From Lagopus muta (Eukaryota; Chordata; Aves; Galliformes; Phasianidae): 64,000 bases of DNA. Shown piece by piece: positions 4,330 to 43,665 of the stretch. The first letter of the stretch is position 1, and each line of letters begins with the position of its first letter. The stretch lies in assembly GCF_023343835.1 (NCBI RefSeq), contig NC_064435.1:40634603-40698602 (forward strand), written 5' to 3'. A program made the position numbers and the translations under genes. Under the pieces are notes generated by a model. It searched no databases. It saw nothing but the letters and a program-made list of their open reading frames with translations, and was not told the DNA's origin.

Positions 4330-5107
4330 GCAGCAGGAAAAAAACTCAGATTTGTGCCAGGGAAATTTGGGAGGGCTTCTCCAAGAACGTAATACAGCTG
4401 ACAGCCCAGCTAAGTATCTCCACACCCTTTAATGACACCTTTCTGATAGCACAAAAGCTCTCCATCCCTCCGCATAAGAAAACAAGCGTTGGTCAGAAGA
4501 GACAAGGGAGTGTACTCCATTTATAAATGGGAAGGGAGAACTGGCAACAACAGACATGGAGAAGGCTGAGATATTCAATGAGTTCTTTGTCTCACTCTTC
4601 ACTGGCAGTCAGATTTCTCATGCCTCATATGTTCCTGAGCCTCTTGGCACAGGTCATATGAACAAAATACCTCCACTGTAAAAGCAGGGCAAGTCAGGAA
4701 TCACCTCATAGGGCTAACTGCATAGAAGTCCATGGGGCCAGATGACATGCATTCCAGGGAAGTGAAGGAATAGGCTGATGTGGTCGCCAAGTTTCCATCA
4801 AGTTTGAAAAGTTGTGGCTGTCAGGCAAAGTCCCTGATGACTGGAAAATGAAAACATCACTCCTATTTTTAAGAAAGGGAGAAAGGAAGATCCAGGAAAT
4901 TACAGGCTGGTGAACCTCACCTCTGTGCCTGGAAAGATTGTGGAGCAGATCCTACTGGAAGATATTTTAAGGCACATAATATATGAGGAGGTTATCCGAG
5001 ATAGCCAGTATGGCTTTACCGAGGGCAGATCATTCCTGGCCAATTTGGTGACCTATGATGGAGTGATGTCATCAGTGGACAAAGGAAGGGCAGCTGATGT
5101 AATCAAC
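4330..5107 (+). mobile_element. old CR1 LINE, plus strand, left part
   Basis: The plus strand encodes fragments of CR1 ORF2: an Asp-Met-Glu-Lys-Ala-Glu segment and a Phe-Thr-Gly-Ser near 4550-4610, a GPDDMH motif near 4735, and at 4910-5107 the reverse transcriptase stretch Leu-Thr-Ser-Val-Pro-Gly-Lys-Ile then Arg-Asp-Ser-Gln-Tyr-Gly-Phe. Stops and shifts occur before 4910, so it is a pseudogene. The copy is interrupted at about 5108 by another CR1 and resumes at about 5850. The left boundary is uncertain; DNA at 4060-4330 may or may not belong to it. Confidence 0.8.
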
Positions 5108-5849
5108 ATAGAATCACAGAATCACCTAGGTCGGAAAAGACCTACAAGACCATCCAGCCCAACCATCCACCTATCACCAATAGTTCTCACTAAACCATGT
5201 CCCTCAACACAAAATCCAAATGTTCCTTGAACACCTCCAGGGTTGGTGAATCCACCACCTCCCCAGGCAGCCCATTCCAGTGCCTGACCACTCTTTTAGA
5301 AAAGTAGTATTTCCTAACATCCAGCCTAAATCTCCCCTGGCACAGCTTGAAGTCATTCCCTCTAGTTCTATCACTAGTTACACAAGAGAAGAGGCCGACC
5401 CCCAGCTCACTACAACCTCCCTTCAGGAAGTTATAGAGAGTAATAAGATCTCCCCCGAGCCTCCTCTTCTCCAGACTGAACAATCCCAGCTCCTTCAGCT
5501 GCTCCTCATAAGGCCTGTGCTCCAGACCCCTCACCAGATTTCTTGCCCTTCTTTGAACCTGCTCCAGGGCCTCAATGTCTTTCTTGCAGCGAGGGGCCCA
5601 AAACTGGACACAGTACTTGAGGTACGGCCTCACTAGAGCTGAGTACAGGGGACAATCACTTCCCTTTTCCTGCTGGCAACACCATTCCTGATGCAAGTGA
5701 GGATGCCATTGGCCTTCTTGGCCACCCAGGCACACTGCTGGCTCATGTTCAGCCAAGCAACAGTCAATACCCCCAGGTCCATTTCCTCTACATAGTCTTC
5801 CAGCCACTCCACCCCAAGTATACAGCATTGCCTGGGGGTTATTGTGGCC
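5108..5849 (-). mobile_element. nested younger CR1 LINE, minus strand, 5' truncated
   Basis: Reading on the minus strand, this copy carries the C-terminal part of CR1 ORF2 downstream of the reverse transcriptase core and ends with the CR1 3' tail at 5108 (GATTCTGTGATTCTATG in that orientation). It sits inside the older plus-strand CR1. It belongs to the same subfamily as 43401-43665, sharing the run with CACTAAACCATGTCCCTCAA. The 5' end is truncated at about 5849. Confidence 0.88.
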
Positions 5850-5851
5850 AA
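5190..5851 (-). pseudogene. CR1 ORF2 C-terminal remnant with one frameshift
   Basis: Two overlapping minus-strand frames together cover the end of CR1 ORF2. The upstream one (to about 5640) holds Asn-Met-Ser-Gln-Gln-Cys-Ala and Lys-Lys-Ala-Asn-Gly-Ile; the downstream one holds Leu-Tyr-Ser-Ala-Leu-Val-Arg-Pro, Glu-Lys-Arg-Arg-Leu and His-Trp-Asn-Gly-Leu-Pro, with its stop just below 5193. A single missing base in the C-rich run near 5643-5655 explains the frame change. The endonuclease and catalytic reverse transcriptase regions are absent. Confidence 0.82.
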
Positions 5852-6206
5852 ATTAAAAAAAACATGGACTTATGTAAGGTCTTTGACATAGTCCCACACC
5901 ACATCTTTATCTCATTATGGTCTTCCAGTACTTGATGGGACACAGGGAAATGGCTTTGAGCTAAAAGAGTGGAAATGTAGATGTTAGGAAGAAATTAATT
6001 ACTCTGAGTGTGGTGAGGCACAGGATTGAGTTGCCCAGAGAAGTTGTGAATGTCCCATTCCTGCAGGTACTTAAAATAAGTTTAGATGGGACCCTGGGCA
6101 GCCTGATCCCATGTTGATCCCATGAGTTGGCAACCATGCCCATGGCAGGGAGCTGGAAAAAGATTGTCTTTAAAGTCCCTTTCAACACAAGGCATTCTGT
6201 GATTCT
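5850..6206 (+). mobile_element. old CR1 LINE, plus strand, right part
   Basis: This continues the element interrupted at 5107. GGACTTATGTAAGGTCTTTG at about 5863 encodes Asp-Leu-Cys-Lys-Val-Phe-Asp followed by Val-Pro-His-His, the next reverse transcriptase motif after the Val-Asp-Lys-Gly-Arg-Ala seen before the insertion. The sequence then jumps to the 3' end of ORF2 (Leu-Pro-Arg-Glu-Val-Val near 6030), so an internal deletion lies at about 5940-5970. It ends with the CR1 tail ATTCTGTGATTCTG. Confidence 0.78.
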
Positions 6207-33877: not shown

Positions 33878-34931
33878 ACATGCACATACAAGAAACAAAA
33901 TCTCATTAACAGACAGAGAAGGTTTCTATCACGAATCAGCCTTCAATGGGGACTGAATAACTATTTGTCAAGAAGCCAGAATATTACTTTTATAAGATAG
34001 AATTAGTAAGAACATAAATGTGAGGAATTGATACAGGGTAATGAGTTTATGCCTCTAAATGTGCTCAACAGGAAGTTTTCATCTTTCATGATCTGAAACA
34101 AAACACTTAATAGGATCTGTCTTGTATTTTGGCTATGAAAATATGCTACTAGATTACAATTTATGTTTTCCTTTTGGAAAAGAAATGAAATCCCATTATT
34201 GACTACCACCACTGTAATTCCATTTGGGCAAAATTGTCTTTTTCAGGTTCACCTCTGTGTTCCTAAGTCTGTGATGAGATTTGGGTCAAACTTACTAGTT
34301 ACACACTGCCACTGTTGCTTATTTTTTTCCAGGTGAAGCATAAATTCATCAAAACAAAATTGCCTATAGACCTCTTAACAGCAGAAAAACATTTTTTCTG
34401 TTACAAATAATTCTTGATCTAACATTTGTATGTCTTACCCTGATAAGGTATTCAAATAACTTTATTCTTTTCTCATTTTCCTTATTCTAAGCTGGACTTA
34501 GGTTATATGAGTGTAATTTCCCCATTATATTTCTTTCTTTTCTGACTTATCTTTAAATCATTTAAGTTTTGGTTTTGTTCTCCCACAGAATTACATAATA
34601 TTTGCATTTCATTCAAGAAAACTGACATTTCTTTGTTACTGTGATATAACGAAATGCAGTGGTTTTACAGCAAACACTTTATTGTATTTGTTTTCCATAT
34701 CCTCTTTGCAATTTGTCATTAAGCAACATGGCACATTATTATTAATTACAGTTGATCCATTGAAGGGTAACTGCACTTTGAAGAACTGGCACTAATAACT
34801 AGAAAGTGGCAGTGGTACCACTTCAAAGCTGAGCTGATCACAGCAGATGATGAAGATGCCAAGAGGACACTACTCCAGAGTAGGATTTTCCATCATTATG
34901 GTACCATTACACCAACAGTCCTTCATAGAAG

Positions 34932-35182
34932 CTTAAGCAGATGAATTCAGACATAGGACAAGGGGAATGGTTTTAAACTGAGAGGGGAGGTTTAGGTAAG
35001 ATATTTGGAAGAAGTTTTTCACAGAGGTGGTGACACCCTCCATCCATGGAGGCAATCAAGGCTAGGCTGGATGTGGCTCTGAGCAGTCTGGTCTAGCGGT
35101 TAGTGACCCTGCACATAGCAGGGGGGTCGGAACAAGATGATTGGTCCTTTTCTATCCAGACCATTCTATGATTCTCTGATCT
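34932..35182 (+). mobile_element. CR1 LINE fragment, plus strand
   Basis: Plus-strand CR1 3' end with AGGACAAGGGGAATGGTTTT, the GGCTAGGCTGGATGTGGCTC run, the AGCAGGGGGGTCGGAAC run and a final CATTCTATGATTCTC tail. The ORF2 C-terminus is broken. Confidence 0.85.
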
Positions 35183-37521: not shown

Positions 37522-37527
37522 TTTATT
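37522..37527 (-). promoter_or_regulatory. candidate poly(A) signal for PPDPFL
   Basis: A canonical AATAAA on the minus strand, about 125 bases beyond the exon 3 end and the read-through TGA. It is the nearest such hexamer downstream, so it fits a short 3' UTR. In AT-rich DNA the hexamer is common by chance, and a more distant last exon would make another site relevant. Confidence 0.4.
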
Positions 37528-37649: not shown

Positions 37650-38847
37650 TCACCTGCTTGCTGATAGTGCTTTTCTGCCAACAGTTGGCGGAGATGGTTC
37701 ACAATGGAAAAAACTTTTTATCCACCAGCATTTATCAAGTAATTCAGGTAACCCTGCCAAAAGAGATGTAGCCCTCACCATTAGACACTCACAGAATAAC
37801 AAACAGGTGAAACTGAGAAGACTGTTTGAAAGCATATAGCATTACCATGAAATGTTTTGTCCTGTTCTGCAACACTCACAGGATCGGAACAGCAGGAGGA
37901 GCTGGAAGAAACGCTGGATTCCGAGTTCTGCCTTGCTGTTCATGGAAAAGAAGGACACATTTAATGAAAAAGATGGATAAATTTCCACGCCAATAATTTC
38001 TCAGACTTGCTGCTACCTCAGAGGAAGCAATCTAAAAGATAAGATAAGCTTAGCAACAAATAGTTAGCTACAATGTGACTTAAATATGTTTTGTACCATT
38101 TTGCTATGGTTGTTTAGTTGAAACCTTTCACCTACATTGATCTCTCATCACCTGAAAGCACACTGAGATCTCCTTGTCCAACTTTCACTGAAATCAGTGA
38201 TGTGCCTTATGATGATCACGTATACACTGTACAGTAATCAAGTGCAAAGAAAAATAATAATAATAAAAAAAGAGAGAAAATTCTGTGCTTTCCATTGTGA
38301 TACAATTAAGAGTACCATCCTTGCACTACTGGATAGCGAGCTATCTAAGGGATCTTAACCAGACCGGGTGCATTCTCAAAGTGTTTCATGTATACAGAAA
38401 CAAGAATGTGTGTTGATTATGCATTCTGTCTAAGCCTGCAAAGGCAAAATAAAGTACAGCTTGAAGCCAGGATTTGTTGATCTAATGCTTTGTCAATGTC
38501 ATGTTTTATAATAAAAAGATTGATACTGCAAAGCCTTAATGAACAATTCTACAGGCAAAAAAGTGTATATGAATAACCAGAAGCAAATACTCATTAAAAC
38601 TGCAGTTCCTTTATGGAACAAAAACAAATATATCCCCAAGCAAATAATAATAAAATAAAAATAACAGCAAAACATATGAATATAGCAAAATCCCACTCTT
38701 GCCTCCAGCTCATTCACCTGAAAAACTTTCTAACCTTCTCATAATGCAACAAACTCGGAGCCTGATGGGGCTGCCGGTCCCTGAGCACTTACTGCGGTAG
38801 TACTGGTTCTTGGCCAGGAGGCATCCGGCGGAGGGTACCGAGGCCAT
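37650..38847 (-). CDS. PPDPFL: PPDPFL, spliced gene of three recognised coding exons
   Basis: Minus-strand gene for a small PPDPF-family protein; family members are linked to exocrine pancreas progenitor growth, with no known enzymatic activity. Seen here: exon 1 38847-38793, exon 2 37935-37846 and exon 3 37753-37654, joined by GT-AG introns of 857 and 92 bases (phases 1 and 1). The joined product has residues 1-18 starting MASVPSAG and ending in QYYR, a Ser/Cys-rich stretch at about 23-35, an acidic DK motif near 44-45, then GLPE and WWIKSFF at about 58-64. These match, in order, the PPDPF/PPDPFL proteins I recall; the MASVPS start and the DK-GLPE-WW-SFF spacing favour PPDPFL over PPDPF. The ATG is in strong Kozak context (CTGCCATGG). 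The end is uncertain: reading past exon 3 gives Arg then TGA at 37652-37650, but that point is also a strong donor (CAG/GTGAGT), so a short fourth coding exon may exist. Human length is about 84 residues from memory, against 81-82 here. No frameshift or internal stop was seen. Confidence 0.88.
37654..37753 (-). CDS. PPDPFL: PPDPFL coding exon 3
   Basis: One hundred bases, preceded by an acceptor CATCTCTTTTGGCAG and followed by the strong donor CAG/GTGAGT. It carries the most diagnostic part of the family: GLPE (the Gly codon is shared with exon 2), the two tryptophans, Ile-Lys-Ser-Phe-Phe-His and a Cys-Glu-Pro. The last complete codon is Ser, with two bases (AG) left over. Reading straight through the donor gives AGG TGA, so this could also be the last coding exon. 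Confidence 0.86.
37846..37935 (-). CDS. PPDPFL: PPDPFL coding exon 2
   Basis: Ninety bases, entered through a pyrimidine-rich acceptor (TCCTTCTTTTCCATGAACAG) and left at CATG/GTAATG. It completes a Thr codon with exon 1 and starts a Gly codon finished by exon 3. It encodes a Ser/Cys-rich run and then the acidic segment before GLPE. An internal GTGAGT after the Asp-Pro codons looks like a stronger donor, but using it would put exon 3 out of frame and lose the conserved acidic DK segment, so the downstream GTAATG donor is preferred. Confidence 0.82.
37936..38792 (-). other. PPDPFL: PPDPFL intron 1
   Basis: 857 bases from donor GTAAGT to the acceptor before exon 2. AT-rich, with an A/T-rich patch at 38245-38280 and no repeat recognised. 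Confidence 0.75.
38793..38847 (-). CDS. PPDPFL: PPDPFL coding exon 1
   Basis: Fifty-five coding bases: 18 codons plus one base, ending at a CGCA/GTAAGT donor (consensus). It encodes the conserved N-terminus up to the Gln-Tyr-Tyr-Arg motif shared by PPDPF and PPDPFL. The start codon at 38847-38845 lies in the CpG island and has near-ideal Kozak context. An upstream in-frame start was not needed to explain the homology. Confidence 0.88.
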
Positions 38848-38958
38848 GGCAGCGAGTAGAATGCTTCTCTCGGACTAAAAGATAAACACGGGGCCGCTCA
38901 CTCCGCAGCGAGTGCCGGCCCGGGTCTCGATCCTCTCCTATATGAGTCCCGTGGCAGA

Positions 38959-39016
38959 GGGACGGCACAGGATGGGACGGCACAGGATGGGACGGGACGG
39001 GACGGGACGGGAGGGG
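38959..39016 (+). repeat. GC-rich tandem repeat and G-quadruplex motif
   Basis: Two perfect copies of the 15-mer GGGACGGCACAGGAT (38959-38973 and 38974-38988) run directly into five GGGAC-type units and a final GGGG (38989-39016). The second part has six G runs of three or more separated by one- or two-base loops, which meets the usual G-quadruplex pattern. It lies just upstream of the presumed PPDPFL start, with the G-rich strand opposite to the coding strand. Confidence 0.85.
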
Positions 39017-39289
39017 TCATCCCGCCCCATTGCCGCCAGCCCCGTGCCGGGCCCCGCCCGCATCCCCGCAGTGCCAGGGACAGACCCGCAGCACGGACCG
39101 AGGGTGTGAGTGGAACACAGTACAGCTTGGGGGGGTGAGGAGTGCCCTGTACCTCCAAGCACTTTTCTGCAGTGTATAAAAAATATTTGCTTTTTTCTTC
39201 CCATAAATAAAGGCACAACTATTTTGTTGTATTTGTCAACCCTATCCCATGGCAAAATCTGCCCTACATTATGCTACCTCATCTGATGG

Positions 39290-43400: not shown

Positions 43401-43665
43401 TCATAGAATCATAGAATCACCAAGGTTGGAAAAACCCACAGGATCACCCAGTCCAACCATCCACTGATCACCAATAGTTCTCACTAAACCATGTCCCTCA
43501 ACAGAAAATCCAAACATTCCTTGAACACCTCCAGGGTCAGCAATTCCACCACCTCCCTGGGCAGCCCATTCCAGTGCCTGACCACTCTTTCAGAAAAGCA
43601 GTATTTCCTAATGTCCAGCCTGAATCTCCTCTGGCACAGCTTGAAGCCATTCCTTCTAGTCCTAA
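43401..43665 (-). mobile_element. CR1 LINE fragment, minus strand
   Basis: Starts TCATAGAATCATAGAATCAC, the reverse of the CR1 tail, and continues through CTAAACCATGTCCCTCAACA. On the minus strand it encodes the last 55 or so residues of ORF2 (Arg-Phe-Arg-Leu-Asp, [10 protein letters not shown]) up to a stop near 43484. Same subfamily as 5108-5849 but more strongly 5' truncated. Confidence 0.88.

Follow-up and report, generated by a model that had tools for sequence, protein, structure and literature searches.

The window, a 64-kb stretch of the Lagopus muta genome (C3:40634603-40698602), possesses a small multi-exon gene on its minus strand, which lies at 40.672-40.673 Mb of contig C3 and is designated below as the window gene. 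Joining the minus-strand segments 38847-38793, 37935-37846 and 37753-37654 (55 + 90 + 100 nt) gives one frame of 81 codons without a stop, and stops occur in each of the remaining two frames. Both introns have GT-AG borders, and the third exon is followed by a GT donor. These coordinates, together with the strand, the junctions and the frame, had been given in a preliminary description of the sequence and proved exact. The features at the locus are as follows, in window positions.

38701..39100, no strand: CpG-rich, promoter-like stretch spanning the first coding exon and the sequence upstream
38793..38847, minus strand: coding exon 1, 55 nt, MASVPSAGCLLAKNQYYR + 1 nt, ATG context GCCATGG
37846..37935, minus strand: coding exon 2, 90 nt, Ser-rich stretch, phase 1 end in the G codon of GLPE
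37654..37753, minus strand: coding exon 3, 100 nt, GLPE...WWIKSFF core, phase 2 end at the donor CAG/GTGAGT
37650..37652, minus strand: TGA inside the exon 3 donor, reached on read-through (...SASR, then stop); it sets the lower end of the gene as first described
37522..37527, minus strand: AATAAA, 126 nt past the end of exon 3, which would serve a putative short form
34961..35173, minus strand: CR1-like repeat with the candidate acceptor 35108, which was rejected as exon 4

Exon structure and family match of the window gene

Splice sites were ranked with weight matrices of approximate values, so that the ranks are rough. The exon 3 donor CAG/GTGAGT ranks first among the 3307 GT sites of the minus strand, donors 1 and 2 are moderate (ranks 140 and 288 of 3307), and acceptors 2 and 3 occupy ranks 52 and 21 of 4453. 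The start of the gene is CpG-rich: the 300 nt from 38801 contain 29 CpG, the highest value of all 300-nt steps in the window (median 1), and the CpG observed/expected ratio is 0.76 in 38701-39000. An imperfect GGGAC-type tandem repeat lies inside this stretch at 38959-39016.

The joined product matched the Pfam family PF15060 (PPDFL) at 38.1 bits (E 2e-9), which is above the cut-off of 27, and the reversed protein gave no match at E up to 10. The match places residues 1-71 of the product on positions 1-66 of the 110 profile positions, leaving positions 67-110 uncovered by the 81 residues, whereas the PPDPF protein encoded on contig C19 of the same genome covers positions 1-106. As a stop-to-stop frame, exon 1 alone reached 19.0 bits (E 0.0017), a sub-cut-off score for which about one chance occurrence is expected among the 729 fragments scanned in the window, and exons 2 and 3 as separate stop-to-stop frames had no PF15060 match. 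The gene is thus recognized with confidence only when its pieces are joined, and it was fair to say that no single open frame reveals it. A genome search with the 81-aa product (E<=0.001) recovered the three window exons and nothing else (3 matches, 8 candidates scored). A PDB sequence search with the product gave no relative, nor was there one among the 40 pattern matches on viral contigs, and Rfam at gathering thresholds found nothing in the window.

Comparison with PPDPF and the 3' end of the gene

The paralog on contig C19 provides an internal reference for the exon structure. At C19:4929719-4930992, four coding exons of 55, 78, 97 and 112 nt were read out with their splice sites and encode a protein of 113 aa that scores 171.6 bits to PF15060. 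We named this locus PPDPF because of this score and its MYT1-family neighbor; in humans, PPDPF is reported on chromosome 20 (PMC8144412) and MYT1 at 20q13.33 (PMC6585022). BLASTP aligned the window product to the C19 protein with 26 of 64 residues identical (41%, E 1e-7), and when it was globally aligned to PPDPF residues 1-83 the score was 100, whereas 1000 shuffles reached 42 at most. Together with the PF15060 match, this identity bears out the earlier assignment to the PPDPF/PPDPFL family. The window gene shares with PPDPF (also called exdpf or C20orf149) the places and phases of its introns, a MAS-PS-G-L N-terminus, a Ser-rich stretch, and the GLP, WW and FF motifs, but the 41% identity extends over those 64 residues only. 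The two proteins also differ at the Ser6/7 pair of PPDPF, which is S6-S7 in the C19 protein and Ser6 followed by Ala7 in the window protein.

The exon borders of the two genes correspond one by one. The first coding exon is 55 nt long and ends at codon 19 in phase 1 in both genes, a border with which a human PPDPF deletion allele, as reported, is consistent (PMC12037078). Exon 2 ends in phase 1 in the Gly codon of GLPE in the window gene and of GLPK in PPDPF (exon of 78 nt), and exon 3 ends in phase 2 in both, the 97-nt exon of PPDPF stopping before GTGAG. Both junctions proposed earlier, 38793/37935 and 37846/37753, thus agree with those of PPDPF in place and phase, and the shared borders support them at the level of sequence comparison.

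The 3' end is the part of the proposed gene model that probably does not stand. Exons 1-3 with their junctions, frame and name were sustained, and the joined sequence itself lacks a stop codon. Because exon 3 ends at the top-ranking donor, in the phase in which PPDPF continues to a fourth exon (112 nt, a split codon and 36 further residues), we infer a further exon with a stop codon downstream of exon 3; the model as drawn would represent three of probably four coding exons.

It could instead be that the gene is complete as drawn, with exon 3 as the terminal exon, a product of 82 aa (...SASR, TGA 37652-37650) and polyadenylation after the AATAAA at 37527, or that such a short alternative form occurs beside the full one. 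An in-frame TGA does stand directly after exon 3, the AATAAA follows 126 nt further on, and the window offers no convincing exon 4. However, any phase-2 donor of the AG/GTGA type automatically yields R-TGA on read-through, so that the TGA carries no weight as evidence for termination in exon 3; C19 PPDPF gives the same R-stop when its exon 3 donor is read through. In addition, the next 5 kb contain 11 AATAAA/ATTAAA, and one near exon 3 is therefore unremarkable. Given also the first-ranking donor at the end of exon 3 and the splicing of PPDPF in the same phase to its fourth coding exon, we regard termination in exon 3 as rather improbable. The TGA at 37652-37650 is probably intronic and could at most end a short alternative form.

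Candidates for the expected fourth exon were sought among the in-phase acceptors downstream of 37654 (55 over 8 kb, and across the remainder of the window 355 that have tails of at least 5 residues), and none within the window was convincing. Acceptor 35108 (tail RVTNR, rank 17 of 4453, polyA signal at 34683) was rejected because it lies inside a CR1-like repeat: a genome search with the region around it gave at least 43 other rows (about 39 places), a lower bound because the best 40 of 2258 candidates were scored, and all of these rows matched only query positions 1-188, the part that contains 35108. Acceptor 36256, with a tail of 36 residues, raised the PF15060 score to 38.9 bits from 38.1 without it, which is no better than decoys, since 3 of 10 other longer in-phase tails reached 39.0-39.9 bits; this tail ranked 42nd of 355 against the PPDPF exon 4 peptide and is not supported. 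Two further in-phase tails gave 38.3 and 37.0 bits. A tblastn search of the window with the PPDPF exon 4 peptide revealed no clear relative (best E 0.17).

We also searched the whole genome (1.03 Gb, 165 contigs) with the PF15060 profile, scoring exons singly at E<=10, and obtained 9 rows. Three are PPDPF exons on C19, two of them above the cut-off and the first exon at 26.2 bits, and the above-cut-off rows occur only there. The window gene appeared through exon 1 only, at a sub-cut-off 16.2 bits, and the remaining five rows are weak and sub-cut-off (one each on C7, C59 and C17, two on C2; E 0.63-7.9). Because exons were scored singly and exons 2 and 3 of the window gene were themselves missed, this search could miss another divergent copy. 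Two of the weak PF15060-like stretches, at C7:48941980 (L007 1501-1602, E 0.63) and C2:77215281 (L010 1444-1605, E 6), contain internal stops; the latter reached E 1.9e-4 in a two-locus tblastn, which has little meaning at genome scale. Both are perhaps decayed copies, and chance is the more likely explanation.

Genomic neighborhood and the rest of the window

Neighboring genes were named from their Pfam family and position. PF08474 (MYT1 family) gave 12 rows at three places, C3:39.607-39.625, C19:4.830-4.835 and C2:17.989-17.999 Mb; PF08163 (DNA-PKcs) gave 7 rows, at C3:41.189-41.198 Mb only; and PF01135 (PCMT) gave 10 rows on four contigs, including one on C3 (39.722 Mb) and one on C19 (4.862 Mb). 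The order on C3 is therefore ST18-like (39.607-39.625), PCMTD1-like (39.722), the window gene (40.672-40.673) and PRKDC (41.189-41.198 Mb), and that on C19 is MYT1-like, PCMTD2-like and PPDPF. The reported cattle order is PRKDC (21.04), EFCAB1, PPDPFL (21.618-21.622), SNTG1, PCMTD1 (22.669) and ST18 (22.815 Mb) (PMC6913038). The neighborhood of the window gene, with PRKDC on one side and PCMTD1 and ST18 on the other, agrees with the cattle PPDPFL order, and the two genes have in common the succession PRKDC - gene - PCMTD1 - ST18. The window gene also resembles PPDPFL (C8orf22), a vertebrate gene, in its gene-poor surroundings and in the N-terminal part of PF15060, but its C-terminal exon was not found in the window.

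In contrast, PPDPF lies on another chromosome, C19, beside the MYT1-like and PCMTD2-like loci. Since the order on C3 is that of cattle PPDPFL and PPDPF is present separately on C19, the window gene is PPDPFL by position and by sequence, and the name given to it in the preliminary description, PPDPFL rather than PPDPF, is upheld by the same neighbors. An alternative reading, that the locus is PPDPF itself or has decayed into a pseudogene of the family, would fit the low family-profile score of its product, a weak PF15060 member at 38 bits versus 172 for PPDPF. However, an open four-exon PPDPF frame exists on C19, and the window copy retains introns, GT-AG sites, an open frame, a good ATG context and a CpG-rich start amid PPDPFL-type neighbors, so this reading is very improbable. 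The locus combines an open spliced frame with a match to the family, agrees with PPDPF in the places and phases of its introns, and lies in a conserved neighborhood. The three segments are almost certainly coding exons 1-3 of the PPDPFL ortholog, which lies on the minus strand, encodes a small protein in several exons and has a CpG-rich, promoter-like start.

A parallel order of paralogs, MYT1 family - PCMT family - PPDPF/PPDPFL, is seen at C19:4830342-4930992 and C3:39607144-40673449. In humans, MYT1L (2p25.3), ST18 (8q11.23) and MYT1 (20q13.33) are described as one family on a paralogy block, and the same report argues against a whole-genome-duplication origin of that block (PMC6585022). The parallel order suggests that PPDPF and PPDPFL are old duplicates that arose or moved with their neighbor block. 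Near the third MYT1-family locus (C2:17.989-17.999 Mb), no above-cut-off PF15060 row was found in the single-exon search, which a divergent copy could escape.

The rest of the window was scanned against Pfam (E<=0.01) as 729 stop-to-stop fragments of at least 40 aa from both strands, a scope that covers exons with 40 or more open codons. Six families were returned: RVT_1 (4e-6), DUF5470 (4.6e-4), PPDFL (0.0017), Mtf2 (0.0032), Archease (0.0057) and OAF_C (0.0064). The PPDFL row is exon 1 of the window gene, and the DUF5470 row, which is below the DUF5470 cut-off, has the identical value to the Ser-rich exon 2 frame. Only RVT_1 clearly stands out, because 729 scans should yield about 7 matches by chance, and the RVT_1 match is a transposon remnant. 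The claim that the window gene is the only recognizable protein-coding gene in the 64 kb therefore holds at the Pfam level for fragments of at least 40 aa, the reverse-transcriptase remnant aside. It is to be expected that the rest of the 64 kb is empty, because cattle PPDPFL is reported to lie far from both EFCAB1 (about 153 kb) and SNTG1 (about 590 kb) (PMC6913038).

Several other elements were observed in the window. The reverse-transcriptase remnant was placed at 4841-5852; this placement is interpretation, and 1 of the 146 fragments of one alignment matches RVT_1 (E 4e-6). The remnant is presumably CR1-like. A direct repeat of 235 nt, 89% identical, occurs at 5136-5370 and 43430-43664 beside CR1-like motifs, and CR1-like stretches flank the gene on the minus strand at 34961-35173 and from 39411 downwards. 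Glucocorticoid-response-element-like sites with at most 2 mismatches number 14 in the whole window, against 7.15 expected, a mild excess that 1 of 100 shuffles reached; one of them, at 38275-38289, lies in intron 1.

Possible function of PPDPFL

In the available parts of the literature, PPDPFL itself is represented by expression, marker or association data, with no demonstrated mechanism. In birds, it is reported in the second wave of zygotic activation in chicken (PMC6242549), among the differentially expressed genes of duck pectoral muscle (PMC12162291), and as upregulated in the breast muscle of cold-treated turkey poults (log2 fold change 5.94), where FBXO32, TRIM63, PDK4 and SESN1 are also up (PMC12491267). 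In mammals, PPDPFL is reported to rise in one human mitochondrial myopathy group and fall in another (PMC3937154), to be lower in the nasal polyps of patients responding to glucocorticoids (PMC8793737), and to occur in a muscle gene list from a testosterone trial (PMC11924803). In cattle, it is listed as a predicted miRNA target in muscle (PMC7348786) and has missense or association variants (PMC6913038; PMC10606632). Its level is also reported to be lower in the heart of rapamycin-treated cats (PMC10603660), a result that speaks neither for nor against a role of PPDPFL in mTORC1 signaling.

More is reported for PPDPF. Its residues 51-64 are described as binding Raptor, interfering with Raptor ubiquitination by CUL4B-DDB1 and lowering mTORC1 activity (PMC8144412), and Ser6/7 is reported to bind GTP in the activation of SOS1 (PMC9839844). 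Zebrafish exdpf is described as a regulator of the exocrine pancreas (PMC2586380); the title of another report denies PPDPF a key regulatory role in the development of the human pancreas (PMC12037078).

Because human PPDPF and the C19 protein share R19 and I40, the human residue numbering can be applied to the latter. Segment 51-64 is then PGQWWASFFFGKTN in C19 PPDPF, and its counterpart in the window protein is DKCWWIKSFFHCEP at 55-68. By analogy with the paralog, PPDPFL may be a small cytoplasmic adaptor whose WW-x-x-SFF segment would correspond to PPDPF residues 51-64. Only 4 of the 14 residues of this segment agree without gaps between the two proteins (by eye), which makes shared Raptor binding speculative, and we consider Raptor binding by PPDPFL possible but doubtful. 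It is less likely still that PPDPFL would serve as a second, stress-induced brake on mTORC1, with WW-x-x-SFF binding Raptor in the manner of PPDPF 51-64 and acting in muscle during catabolic stress.

The significance of the locus lies mostly in annotation: three pieces of a tiny, divergent, multi-exon gene were correctly recognized in the bare sequence, and the paralog of the same genome both backs the exon borders and points to a terminal exon that is probably absent from the model. Judged from its sequence and position, the window gene is an ordinary, already named vertebrate gene, PPDPFL. For this member of the family, an adaptor role related to that of PPDPF, in muscle among other tissues, would be the most likely function by analogy.
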